Positions 2,700 through 6,693 of a stretch of 32,296 bases of DNA are shown here, piece after piece. The DNA is from a virus, in the IMG/VR virus record IMGVR_UViG_3300001683_000165, positions 1 to 32,296 of that record; one strand, given 5' to 3'. The position numbers and the translations under genes were made by a program. Under the pieces are notes generated by a model. It ran no database searches and was not told the origin of the DNA. It was given only the letters and a program-made list of their open reading frames with translations. Within the stretch, counting starts at the first letter, position 1, and every line of letters begins with the position of its first letter.

Positions 2700-3281
2700 A
2701 TGGCCGCACCGATCCCGACCACCGAGCCGACCGAGTTTGTCCGAGGCGATACCCTGGCGTGGACGCGGGGCGATCTCTCGACCGACTACCCGGCGTCGAC
2801 CTGGACGCTGACCTATGAGTTTGTCCCGCTCGGCTCGCCGGGCGTGGCGTTTACGATCACCGCCTCGGCCGACGGCGACGACTACGCGGTCGCCGAGGTG
2901 GCGTCGGTTACGGCCGCCCTGGTCGCCGGCAATTACCGATGGGCCGCATTTGTCACCGCCGGCGCCGCTCGCCACCGAATCGACGCCGGCACGGTTAAAA
3001 TGCTCGAGGATCTCGCGAGCCCGGCAAGCGGCTATGAGGGCCGATCGCACGCCCGCGTCGTGGTCGACAATATTGAGGCGGTGATCGAGGGCCGGGCGAC
3101 CAAAGACCAAGAGTCCTACACCGTCGACGGCCGCTCGCTGCAACGCACGCCGCTCGCCGACCTGTTGACGCTACGCGACCGATACCTCGAGGAACTACGC
3201 CGCGAGGCCCAAGCCGAGGCGCTCGCCAATGGCAAGGCGTCCGGTCGAATGATTATGACGAGGTTCGCACGCCATGGCTGA
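2700..3281 (+). CDS. gpW-like head-tail connector fused to an N-terminal beta domain
   Basis: 193 residues between terminase and portal, exactly where lambda carries W. Residues 118-170 (VVVDNIEAVIEGRA, then TVDGRSLQRTPLADLLTLRD) follow the gpW pattern of helix, beta hairpin, helix; lambda W itself is 68 residues. The first ~105 residues form an unrelated beta-rich domain (FVRGDTLAW, WTLTYEF, AGNYRWAAFVTAG) that looks like the Ig-like domains many tailed phages encode as a separate small protein. gpW closes the head after packaging and offers the tail docking surface. The start follows the terminase stop by three bases; the end overlaps the portal start by eight bases. The gpW part is a pattern match by eye; the role of the extra domain is unknown. 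Confidence 0.75.
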   Translation: MAAPIPTTEPTEFVRGDTLAWTRGDLSTDYPASTWTLTYEFVPLGSPGVAFTITASADGDDYAVAEVASVTAALVAGNYRWAAFVTAGAARHRIDAGTVKMLEDLASPASGYEGRSHARVVVDNIEAVIEGRATKDQESYTVDGRSLQRTPLADLLTLRDRYLEELRREAQAEALANGKASGRMIMTRFARHG

Positions 3282-4746
3282 TCGCTTTATCGACCGCGTC
3301 GCTCGCCGCTTTGGTTTCACTCGCTCGACCGGCCGGCGCGCCTTTGACGCCGGCGCCGGCGGCCGCCTGTTCTCCGATTGGGTAACGGCTCCGCTCACCG
3401 CCGACGCCGAGCACAAGGCCGGGCTTCGCACGATCCGCGCCCGCGCTCGCGACCTCTCGGTTAATAACGATTACGCCCGGCGATTCCTGCACCTGGTCAA
3501 AGCCAACGTTCTCGGGCCGAGCGGGATCCGCTTGCAAATGCGGGTTAAGGATAACGCCGGCAACGCCGACAAGCAGGCAAACGAGGCGATCGAGGCCGCC
3601 TGGTCGGCGTGGGGGAAAAGGGGCGTCGCCACGGTTTGCGGTACTTTGTCATGGGCCGCCGTCGAGCGCCTGGTCGCCGAGTCCGTAGCACGCGACGGCG
3701 AGGTTTTGATCCGCCTGGTTCGCGGTTTCGATAATCCGTTCGGCTTCGCCCTGCAAATTATCGAGGCCGATCACCTCGACGAGCAACTAAACAAACCGCT
3801 CGGCGCCGGCGCCGAGATCCGCCTCGGCGTCGAGTTCAATGAATGGCGCCGGCCGATCGCCTATCACTTGACGGCGGCGCACCCTGGCGACGACCTGGCC
3901 GGCGTGCGCCGGCGTCACCACCGCGTCGAGGCGCCCGACCTGGTACACCTGTTTTCACGCGAGCGGGTTTCGCAATCGCGCGGCTGGTCGTGGTTCGTCT
4001 CGGCCGCGACGCGGGCCAAGATGATCGGCGGCTATGAGGAAGCGGCGTTAGTCGCGGCCCGCACCGGCGCCTCCAAGATGGGGTTTTACACCGAGACCAC
4101 GCCCGACGCCTACGGCGGCGACCAGGGCGAAAAAGACGCCGCCGGCAATCTATTGAGCGACGCCGAGCCTGGTCACTTCGAGCGGCTCCCGCCGGGCGTC
4201 GATTTCAAGGAATTTGACCCGACCTATCCGACCAATGATTTCGACCCGTTCGTGCGCCGCTCGCTGCAAGGCGTGGCGGCCGGTTTGAATGTTTCCTATA
4301 CCGCCCTGTCGGGCGATCTCTCCAACGTCAATTTCTCCTCGATCCGTCAAGGCGTGCTCGACGAGCGCGACGCCTGGCGCATGGTTCAAGGCTGGTTGAT
4401 CGAGAATTTGCACGCCGAGGTTTTCAAAGCCTGGTTGCCGCTTGCCATGGCGAGCGGCCAGGTCGGCCGTCTGCCCATGAGCAAGTTCGACAAATTCAAT
4501 TCGCCGATCTGGCGCGCGCGCGGCTGGTCATGGGTTGACCCGCTCAAAGATATGAAGGCGAACGATCTCGGCCTCGCCAATGGCTCGCGCTCGCTAACCG
4601 ATATCGCCGCCGAGCAAGGGATCGACCTCGAGGAACTATTCGAGCGGATCGTCGCCGAGCGCGAGCTCGCCGTTTCGCTCGGTCTCAATTTCACTAAGCC
4701 GGCGCCGGCGGCGCCAGTTCTCACCGTCGAGGCCGACGGCGAATAA
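3274..4746 (+). CDS. portal protein (lambda B family)
   Basis: 490-residue portal forming the dodecameric ring at the packaging vertex. The N-terminal arm has RTIRARARDLSVNNDYARRFLHL, characteristic of the lambda-type portals (early residues only cited for pattern), followed by the conserved LVRGFDNPFGFALQIIEADH and AYHLTAAHPGD segments, VVRSLQGVAAGL-like RRSLQGVAAGLNVSYTALS, and NFSSIRQGVLDERDAWR near residue 350. Length is close to lambda B (533). It starts at ATG 3274 inside the end of the preceding gene and is followed after 15 bases by the capsid gene. The short acidic C-terminus is ordinary for the family. No frameshift or missing block seen. Confidence 0.95.
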   Translation: MADRFIDRVARRFGFTRSTGRRAFDAGAGGRLFSDWVTAPLTADAEHKAGLRTIRARARDLSVNNDYARRFLHLVKANVLGPSGIRLQMRVKDNAGNADKQANEAIEAAWSAWGKRGVATVCGTLSWAAVERLVAESVARDGEVLIRLVRGFDNPFGFALQIIEADHLDEQLNKPLGAGAEIRLGVEFNEWRRPIAYHLTAAHPGDDLAGVRRRHHRVEAPDLVHLFSRERVSQSRGWSWFVSAATRAKMIGGYEEAALVAARTGASKMGFYTETTPDAYGGDQGEKDAAGNLLSDAEPGHFERLPPGVDFKEFDPTYPTNDFDPFVRRSLQGVAAGLNVSYTALSGDLSNVNFSSIRQGVLDERDAWRMVQGWLIENLHAEVFKAWLPLAMASGQVGRLPMSKFDKFNSPIWRARGWSWVDPLKDMKANDLGLANGSRSLTDIAAEQGIDLEELFERIVAERELAVSLGLNFTKPAPAAPVLTVEADGE

Positions 4747-4761
4747 AAAGGGGTTTTTGAT

Positions 4762-6693
4762 ATGCCACGGAAAATTGAGGTCGGAACGATGTTCCGATCG
4801 GCGACGATTACTCGCGACCATATCGACGAGCAATCTCGCACCGTCACGCTTTCGTTTTCTTCCGAGGTTCCTGTCCGCCGGTGGTTCGGCGACGAGATCC
4901 TCGACCACGATCCCGGCGCCGTCGACCTTGATCGGTTGAATGACGCCGGGCCGCTCCTGGTCGATCACGACCGGGGCGATCACGTTGGCGTCGTGGAATC
5001 CGCCGAGATCGGGAACGATCGACGCGGCCACGCTCGAGTCAGGTTCGGCCGCCAAGGGCGCGCCGATGAGATCTGGCGCGACGTCGTCGACGGGATCCGC
5101 TCGCACGTTTCCGTCGGCTATGAGATCCGCGAAATGAAACTCGCGGAATCCAGCGACGACGGCGACTCCTACCGAATTACCGAATGGGCGCCGCTCGAGA
5201 TCTCGATCACTTCCGTTCCGGCCGATCCGTCGGTCGGCATGGGCCGCGCCCATGAGGGCGACAACGTCCGCACTTTTACCTTTCATGAAAGGGGCTCTGA
5301 TATGCCCACCGAAAACACCACCGAGACCACGGCGCCCGCCGCCGAGGCCACCGCCGCCCGCGCCGCACCGGCGCCGGCACCCGCCACCGTCGCCGCCGTG
5401 CCGGCCGGCCCGTCGATCGCCGACGAGCGCGCCCGCGCCCTCGAGATCACCGAGACCGGCGTCCGTTTCAACATGGTCGAGGCCGCCGCGAACGCCGTTC
5501 GCGAGGGCGTCACCGTCGACGCTTTCAATCGCGTCTTGCTCGACCGCATGGCGGCCGCGCCTGGCGCCGCGCCGCTGGCGCTTCGCGGCGGCGACGAGGA
5601 TTCGCCCGAGATCGGTCTCACGCCGGCCGAGGCAAACCGCTTTTCATTTACCCGCGCGATCCAGGCGTCGTTGTCGGGCGATTGGTCGGCCGCCGGTTTC
5701 GAGCGCGAGGTTTCCGAGGCCGCCGTCGCCAAACTCAACATTGCTCAACGCGGGAGCTTTGTCGTTCCCTACGACGTTATGATCGCCTCGCGTGATCTCA
5801 CCGCCGGCACCGACGGCTCGGGCGGCTACCTGGTCGCCACCGACAACCTGGCCGAATCGTTTATCGGCCTGTTGCGAAACCGGATGATGGTTCAGCAACT
5901 CGGCGCCCGCGTTCTCGACGGCCTGGTCGGCGATATCTCGATCCCGTCGATCACCGCCGGCGCCGCCGGCTCTTGGGTTGCCGAGGGCTCGGCCGCTTCC
6001 GAGACCACGCAGACCACCGGCCAACTTGCCATGGCGCCCAAGACCGTCACGGCGTTTACCGATATGTCGCGCAAGCTTATTAAGCAGAGCTCGCCGGCTG
6101 TCGAGGTTTTGGTCCGCGAGGATCTCGCGAGCGCGCTCGCCCTGGCGATCGACGTCGGCGCGATCAACGGCTCGGGAGCGAGCAATCAGCCGACCGGGAT
6201 CCTGGCGACGACCGGGATCGGCGACGTCGCCGGCGGCACGAACGGGCTCTCGCCGACCTGGGGCAACGTGATTGAGCTCGAGACCGACGTCGCGGTCGCC
6301 AACGCCGACGTTGGCGCCATGGCATACCTGACGAACGCCAAGGTTCGCGGCGTGCTCAAGAACACCGACAAGGCAAGCGGTGCGGCGCAATTCGTTTGGG
6401 GCGACAACGCCGCCGAGCCTGGTTTCGGTATGCTCAACGGCTACCGCGCCGGCGTCTCGAACCAGGTTCCCGACAATCTGACCAAGGGCTCGGCCTCGGC
6501 GATTTGCTCGGCGATCGTGTTCGGCAATTGGGCCGACCTCGTAATCGGTATGTGGGGCGCACTCGACGTCCTGGTCGATCCCTACACCGGATCGACGACC
6601 GGCGCCGTTCGGATCGTCACTCACCAGGATGCCGATATCGGGATTCGCCACGCGGCGAGTTTCTCGGCGATGCTCGACGCGCTCACCGCGTAG
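4762..6693 (+). CDS. prohead protease-major capsid protein fusion (HK97 type)
   Basis: 643-residue fusion. Residues 1-170 are a prohead protease of the HK97 S78 group: His69 in LLVDHDR, a serine in RSHVSVGYE (114 or 117) and Glu146 in PLEISITSVPAD give the expected His/Ser/Glu set. An Ala/Pro-rich linker (about 181-225) leads into a delta-domain-like helical stretch and then the HK97-fold capsid protein (GTDGSGGYLVATD, GSWVAEGSAASET, ELETDVAVANADVGAMA). The protease trims the scaffold part and matures the shell. AAAAAGGGG at 4745-4753 serves ATG 4762. A second start at codon 181 has its own ribosome-binding site (5287-5304), so a free 463-residue capsid protein is probably made too. A hairpin terminator follows at 6756. 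Confidence 0.93.
   Translation: MPRKIEVGTMFRSATITRDHIDEQSRTVTLSFSSEVPVRRWFGDEILDHDPGAVDLDRLNDAGPLLVDHDRGDHVGVVESAEIGNDRRGHARVRFGRQGRADEIWRDVVDGIRSHVSVGYEIREMKLAESSDDGDSYRITEWAPLEISITSVPADPSVGMGRAHEGDNVRTFTFHERGSDMPTENTTETTAPAAEATAARAAPAPAPATVAAVPAGPSIADERARALEITETGVRFNMVEAAANAVREGVTVDAFNRVLLDRMAAAPGAAPLALRGGDEDSPEIGLTPAEANRFSFTRAIQASLSGDWSAAGFEREVSEAAVAKLNIAQRGSFVVPYDVMIASRDLTAGTDGSGGYLVATDNLAESFIGLLRNRMMVQQLGARVLDGLVGDISIPSITAGAAGSWVAEGSAASETTQTTGQLAMAPKTVTAFTDMSRKLIKQSSPAVEVLVREDLASALALAIDVGAINGSGASNQPTGILATTGIGDVAGGTNGLSPTWGNVIELETDVAVANADVGAMAYLTNAKVRGVLKNTDKASGAAQFVWGDNAAEPGFGMLNGYRAGVSNQVPDNLTKGSASAICSAIVFGNWADLVIGMWGALDVLVDPYTGSTTGAVRIVTHQDADIGIRHAASFSAMLDALTA
5287..5304 (+). promoter_or_regulatory. 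internal ribosome-binding site and start codon for free capsid protein
   Basis: GAAAGGGG at 5287-5294 followed, after seven bases, by ATG 5302, in frame with the fusion (codon 181). It is almost a copy of the site used by the fusion itself: AAAGGGG, a T-rich spacer, GATATGCC in both places. The position is exactly the border between the protease and the capsid part. Inference: initiation here gives capsid protein without protease, setting a high capsid-to-protease ratio. Confidence 0.7.

Follow-up and report, generated by a model that had tools for sequence, protein, structure and literature searches.

The window, that is the whole stretch of DNA analysed, corresponds to a 32,296-base virus record. 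It carries a portal protein gene whose end lies 15 bases 5' of the ATG of a protease-delta-capsid fusion gene. Further neighbours encode a GpA-type terminase large subunit and a head-tail joining protein, and head-tail attachment and tail genes lie downstream of the fusion gene. The features discussed below are:

3274..4746, + strand: portal protein gene, lambda-type (TIGR01539, 361.6 bits, cut-off 172.7; PF05136)
4747..4753, + strand: Shine-Dalgarno (SD) sequence of the first start, AAAGGGG (pattern match 4747-4766; SD energy -7.3 kcal/mol)
4762..6693, + strand: protease-delta-capsid fusion ORF, 643 aa (phrog_617 over residues 8-637, E 1.4e-160, 537 bits)
4762..5247, + strand: S78 prohead protease domain and conserved block to R162 (PF04586, residues 59-156)
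5248..5415, + strand: linker, residues 163-218, fast-evolving, predicted disordered, containing the internal start
5288..5294, + strand: SD sequence of the internal start, AAAGGGG, 7 bases 5' of the ATG (pattern match 5288-5306)
5302..5304, + strand: internal in-frame ATG, codon 181, predicted to give a 463-aa product (5302-6693)
5416..5736, + strand: putative delta domain, helical and scaffold-like, residues 219-325 (AlphaFold model)
5821..6669, + strand: predicted HK97-fold major capsid domain (PF05065, residues 354-636, 146.7 bits)

The phrog_617 profile spans nearly the whole 643-residue protein, which places the window among the phrog_617 fusions. The S78 domain (Peptidase_S78, 33.7 bits, cut-off 21) and the HK97 capsid domain (cut-off 24.2 for PF05065) are both carried by this single ORF. 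The NCBIfam profile for prohead protease/MCP fusions, NF045541, matched residues 21-271 only, with 177.2 bits, under its curated cut-off of 525. His69 and Ser117, which we take to be the catalytic pair of the S78 protease, are unchanged in all 65 aligned sequences, and a conserved PADxxVGxGR block closes at R162. The AlphaFold model, built from 65 sequences (mean pLDDT 85.1, pTM 0.58), exhibits block means above 90 over residues 11-150 of the protease and in the delta helices except 261-280. Values are mostly below 50 over residues 156-215, and a second short stretch of low confidence occurs at 349-363. The top PDB match of the model is 8gta, the capsid of the marine phage R4C (E 3.5e-20), followed by GTA, with HK97 (2ft1, 1ohg) lower down; the capsid part is modelled with the HK97 fold. 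By analogy with HK97 gp5, residues 219-325 may serve the delta (scaffold-like) function.

Two start sites in one reading frame

A previous sequence-only reading of this DNA had placed two starts in the same frame, ATG 4762 and ATG 5302 (codon 181), with products of 643 and 463 residues, and these coordinates were verified. The second start had been located precisely where the protease ends. This is nearly the case: the S78 match stops at residue 156, the conserved block at R162, and Met181 lies inside the low-pLDDT region 156-215.

The first site (4747-4766) reads AAAGGGG-TTTTTGAT-ATGCC and the internal site (5288-5306) AAAGGGG-CTCTGAT-ATGCC. They had been described as near-copies, and indeed the loose pattern RRRGGRG-N3-9-ATATGNC matches only these two places in the 32,296-base record, with no match on the reverse strand and none in the control. 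The SD energy is -7.0 kcal/mol at the internal start compared with -7.3 at the first, and folding of the 70 nt around each start gives an MFE of -12.7 compared with -16.8. The internal site is therefore about as strong as the first and less structured.

The contexts of the two sites agree at 17 of 20 scored positions, a likeness seen in 0.02% of cross-genome pairs; among 174 own pairs, no other attains it. The proposal that they are duplicates of one another thus holds as a resemblance in this genome. As a mechanism it is not supported: across the family, the average likeness of own pairs (10.2) is barely above that of cross pairs (9.7), and copying of one site from the other was rejected. A comparable SD plus ATG occurs in 13.5% of equal-length stretches drawn elsewhere in the ORFs of the family (7,312 draws), so that the internal site in one genome alone is unremarkable.

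Conservation of the internal start in the family

Relatives (72 and 77 viral contigs, 80 genome contigs and 21 named phages, 250 in all) were collected by similarity to the fused protein. Protease and capsid lie in one open frame in 243 of the 250, a proportion biased upward by this mode of collection and not an estimate of frequency. No split protease and capsid genes were found among the seven remaining loci (L059, L061, L063, L065, L066, L068 and L070), which are incomplete or partial matches and were left out since their match does not show both domains on one frame. The 243 relatives and the window (244 sequences) were reduced to 181 representatives at 80% identity. The linker was taken as the region between the PADxxVGxGR block and the delta domain, and an SD energy of -5 kcal/mol or lower was used as the criterion. 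Linkers range from 27 to 99 codons with a mean identity of 21%, compared with 51% for the protease and 42% for the capsid.

An in-frame linker ATG is present in 180 of the 181 representatives and has an SD energy of -5 or lower in 153. Shuffling the codon order within each linker gave 37.8 ± 5.2 of 181 (maximum 50, 200 trials). Across the family, unlike in one genome, the site stands out. After clustering at 50% identity the site is found in 48 of 57 representatives (shuffled 12.7, maximum 19), and with a stricter limit of -7 in 27 of 57 (shuffled 3.4, maximum 7); the family result is independent of thresholds. The proportion with an SD energy of -5 or lower is 72% for the 225 in-frame linker ATGs, compared with 18% for the 231 out of frame in the linker, 17% for the 388 inside the protease and 11.5% for the 1,927 inside the capsid part. 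Where the linker has a single ATG, and no best one was selected, the proportion is 122/139.

Positional profiles were drawn on the ATG with the best SD in each representative, which inflates the SD profile but leaves the single-ATG subset unaffected; in these, SD cores start 10-15 bases 5' of the internal ATG. In 50-nt windows the MFE climbs to -5.6 at the internal ATG from flanking values of about -12 to -14. In 167 of 180 cases this ATG is followed by S, P, T, E, D, N or K as residue 2. When synonyms were resampled from the same ORF with the amino acids fixed, the mean SD energy was -4.67 (sd of the mean 0.18) compared with an observed value of -6.65. Ordinary linker positions, with a median of -2.2, are weaker than this resampled null, suggesting that residue choice is also bent to the RNA signal. 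In 382 related pairs, where the residue is kept, the same synonym is kept at codons -7 to -1 with a frequency of 0.68-0.90 compared with 0.49-0.68 expected.

Chance, or a side effect of a linker rich in Glu, Lys and Gly, would suffice for a single site, which about 13% of equal stretches contain. At the family level this explanation, like codon composition, is contradicted by the shuffles, the synonymous resampling and the out-of-frame ATGs, and its probability is negligible. A protein motif in place of an RNA signal was also rejected, the linkers being 21% identical and their synonymous codons constrained. Alternatively, an SD-like stretch at the domain border could make ribosomes pause and let the protease fold first, the ATG being incidental. 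The stretch does sit between folded domains. However, pausing needs no ATG, yet an in-frame ATG is found in 180/181 representatives at start-like spacing, residue 2 is start-like and mRNA structure is low near the ATG, so that we regard pausing as very improbable.

Fusions without the internal site, which the sequence-only reading had regarded as evidence against a built-in start, exist as a minority. One representative, L117, has no linker ATG and carries an apparent GTG start behind AAGGAG (SD -8.8). In 23 of 181 the linker contains no ATG, GTG or TTG with an SD energy of -5 or lower, although in many of these an ATG still follows a weaker stretch rich in A and G. Seven of the 23 are cultured phages (MQ-4, Alexa, S-CBS3, Mica, Mano, S-LBS1 and M29). 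The cyanophage members S-LBS1 (L089) and S-CBS3 (L084) have linker ATGs with little or no SD pairing. On a FastTree tree calculated with the linker removed, the weak-site label changes 18 times, which indicates that weak sites are scattered.

According to a further explanation, the capsid gene was once separate, and loss of the intervening stop left its former ribosome-binding site in place without a function. The site does resemble the start of any ordinary gene, and HK97 has its protease and capsid in separate genes, as described in PMC8508860. Against this, the site persists in a linker of 21% identity and 27-99 codons, the synonymous codons 5' of the ATG are constrained, and weak sites are few and scattered whereas a relic would decay. 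Persistence in a diverged linker together with synonym constraint fits neither a useless relic nor a protein motif. A functionless relic is therefore improbable; the loss of a stop may nevertheless describe the origin of the site. What is directly observed is the pair of start sites, the domain border and the conservation of the internal site across the family, and a built-in second start giving a capsid precursor without protease, as proposed from the single genome, is strongly supported by this comparative evidence.

A candidate two-start mechanism

The reading that we prefer, with a probability of about 80%, is that of a two-start cistron which yields protease-delta-capsid and delta-capsid and sets the protease dose per shell. 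Ribosomes starting at 4762 would produce the 643-aa protease-delta-capsid and those starting at 5302 the 463-aa delta-capsid. As both products carry the delta and capsid domains, they would co-assemble. The protease would enter the procapsid covalently on a fraction of the subunits, this fraction being set by the two start sites. Once the procapsid has closed, it would cut off itself and the delta domains to give the mature shell. We infer from sequence comparison that the gene gives rise to both proteins, that these assemble together and that protease dosage is what the phage gains, which would provide space within the shell and avoid premature cleavage. That the internal start sets the capsid:protease ratio is our best inference.

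Full-length protein alone would place one protease on every procapsid subunit. HK97 has far fewer proteases than capsid proteins. The shell of R4C, a member of the family, is T=7 with 415 capsid copies according to PMC10276861. The R4C CDS comprises 629 codons, with an internal ATG at residue 189 (SD -9.5). In the solved structure the capsid chain does not begin until residue 362, which implies a mature shell without protease, linker and delta domain. Since maturation removes the region of the internal start, virion N-termini cannot reveal this start, and the N-terminal mass spectrometry of virions suggested in the sequence-only reading would miss it. If correct, the two-start reading explains how fusion phages avoid one protease per subunit (415 in R4C), a point not addressed in the available text of the papers on fused genes.

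In 177 pairs the mean SD energy is -6.69 at the internal start and -6.52 at the first. This near-equal strength does not by itself predict an excess of the short product, and ribosomes arriving from the upstream start could mask the internal site. Internal initiation might also be real and serve to provide more capsid, or a nucleating delta-capsid pool, instead of a protease dose. A shell requires hundreds of capsid copies (415 in R4C), and across the family RNA structure is weaker at internal sites (MFE70 of -9.7) than at the first start (-12.5). However, it is exactly the protease that is left out of the short product throughout the family, and we consider it unlikely that capsid output is the role. 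The two roles are not exclusive: they are compatible, and no result separates them.

Internal starts in protease-scaffold genes are already known, as are single genes for protease, scaffold and capsid. In lambda C/Nu3, Nu3 is made from an internal start, and the corresponding protease-scaffold gene of Mu is I/Z. An in-frame internal start inside the Mu gene, and a putative one in PaMx73 (P. aeruginosa, Mu-like gene 27), are described in PMC4378225. All three resemble the window in having an in-frame SD start after an N-terminal protease and a short product free of protease. However, the short product of Mu I/Z and lambda C/Nu3 is the scaffold and the capsid gene is separate, whereas that of the window would include PF05065. 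Retroviral Gag and Gag-Pol likewise place the protease on a minority of the shell precursors, but do so through readthrough or a frameshift where gag ends, whereas the window has a second start.

Among members of phrog_617, VP882, phiHAP-1, RcCronus, R4C and the ep3-like phages share the full-length domain order of the window. Public annotations of the 21 phrog_617-type records fetched give a single product per fusion gene and no internal start. If the two-start reading is correct, a second, unannotated product is expected for hundreds of database entries.

Other protease-capsid fusion types

NCBI names two further fusion families, NF045541 (S78 with PF25209) and NF045540 (ClpP-like with PF25209). 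Collapsing at 80% reduced the former from 121 ORFs to 21 and the latter from 98 to 13. In the S78-PF25209 type, 20 of 21 representatives have an in-frame ATG with an SD energy of -5 or lower no more than 90 codons beyond the protease (shuffles 6.6 ± 2.0, maximum 13). In the ClpP-PF25209 type, such an ATG lies within 60 codons after the protease in 13 of 13 (shuffles 3.6 ± 1.5, maximum 8); holders include Salmonella phage Gifsy-2, cdtI and Pseudomonas phage F10. The ATG occupies an identical position, +19, in 9 of these 13, mostly in a similar context, so that in the ClpP type conservation at the protein level is inseparable from an RNA signal.

The protease and first delta residues of the window match the S78-PF25209 profile (177 bits, residues 21-271), and the capsid half is common to S78-PF25209 and ClpP-PF25209. 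Since halves are shared among the three types, modules may have been exchanged along with the start site; three separate origins were considered and are unsupported for the same reason. It seems probable that, as a general rule, selection keeps an in-frame internal start at the border wherever a prohead protease and the major capsid protein form one covalent fusion. The rule holds in the three combinations S78-PF05065, S78-PF25209 and ClpP-PF25209, and we lean towards viewing it as a prokaryotic counterpart of Gag versus Gag-Pol.

Effantin et al. 2010 reportedly found protease, scaffold and capsid of Gifsy-2 in one gene (tripartite), and an in-frame SD plus ATG is present at its border (L450). 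In gp5 of Pseudomonas phage MD8, protease, scaffold-like domain and capsid also lie in one ORF, and a word search of the paper (PMC8508860) found no 'internal'. Both phages resemble the window in this single-ORF arrangement but differ in the ClpP-type protease and the capsid family PF25209. In the open-licence PMC papers searched, no previous account of such a start within a fused protease-capsid gene was recognised, nor one of an internal start, kept in three fusion types, whose product is the capsid precursor itself; Effantin et al. 2010 may mention one for Gifsy-2. If true, the two-start reading provides a rule for annotators and makes procapsid protease dosage testable through a single start-site change in laboratory phages.

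One further locus, L258, encodes on the + strand (frame 1-2424) a PF25209 capsid behind an N-terminal half without Pfam match. Between the two halves, at residue 300, it carries CAGGAGGAAAGC-ATG (SD -10.3), and it is perhaps a fourth fusion kind following the border-start rule. A blastn search with its first 300 bases, which do not include the border, gave no match.

Seven S78-PF25209 members (L264, L267, L268, L269, L262, L261 and L474) exhibit two in-frame SD plus ATG sites in the linker, at residues 199 and 230 (counted from 0) in the case of L264. These pairs might correspond to a third product or to start-site turnover. Finally, the fusion genes of phiHAP-1 (L087), Gifsy-2 (L450), cdtI (L451) and yong2 (L452) have annotated starts well 3' of where similarity sets in, by up to about 90-100 codons in cdtI, suggesting that the first starts in these families deserve re-annotation.
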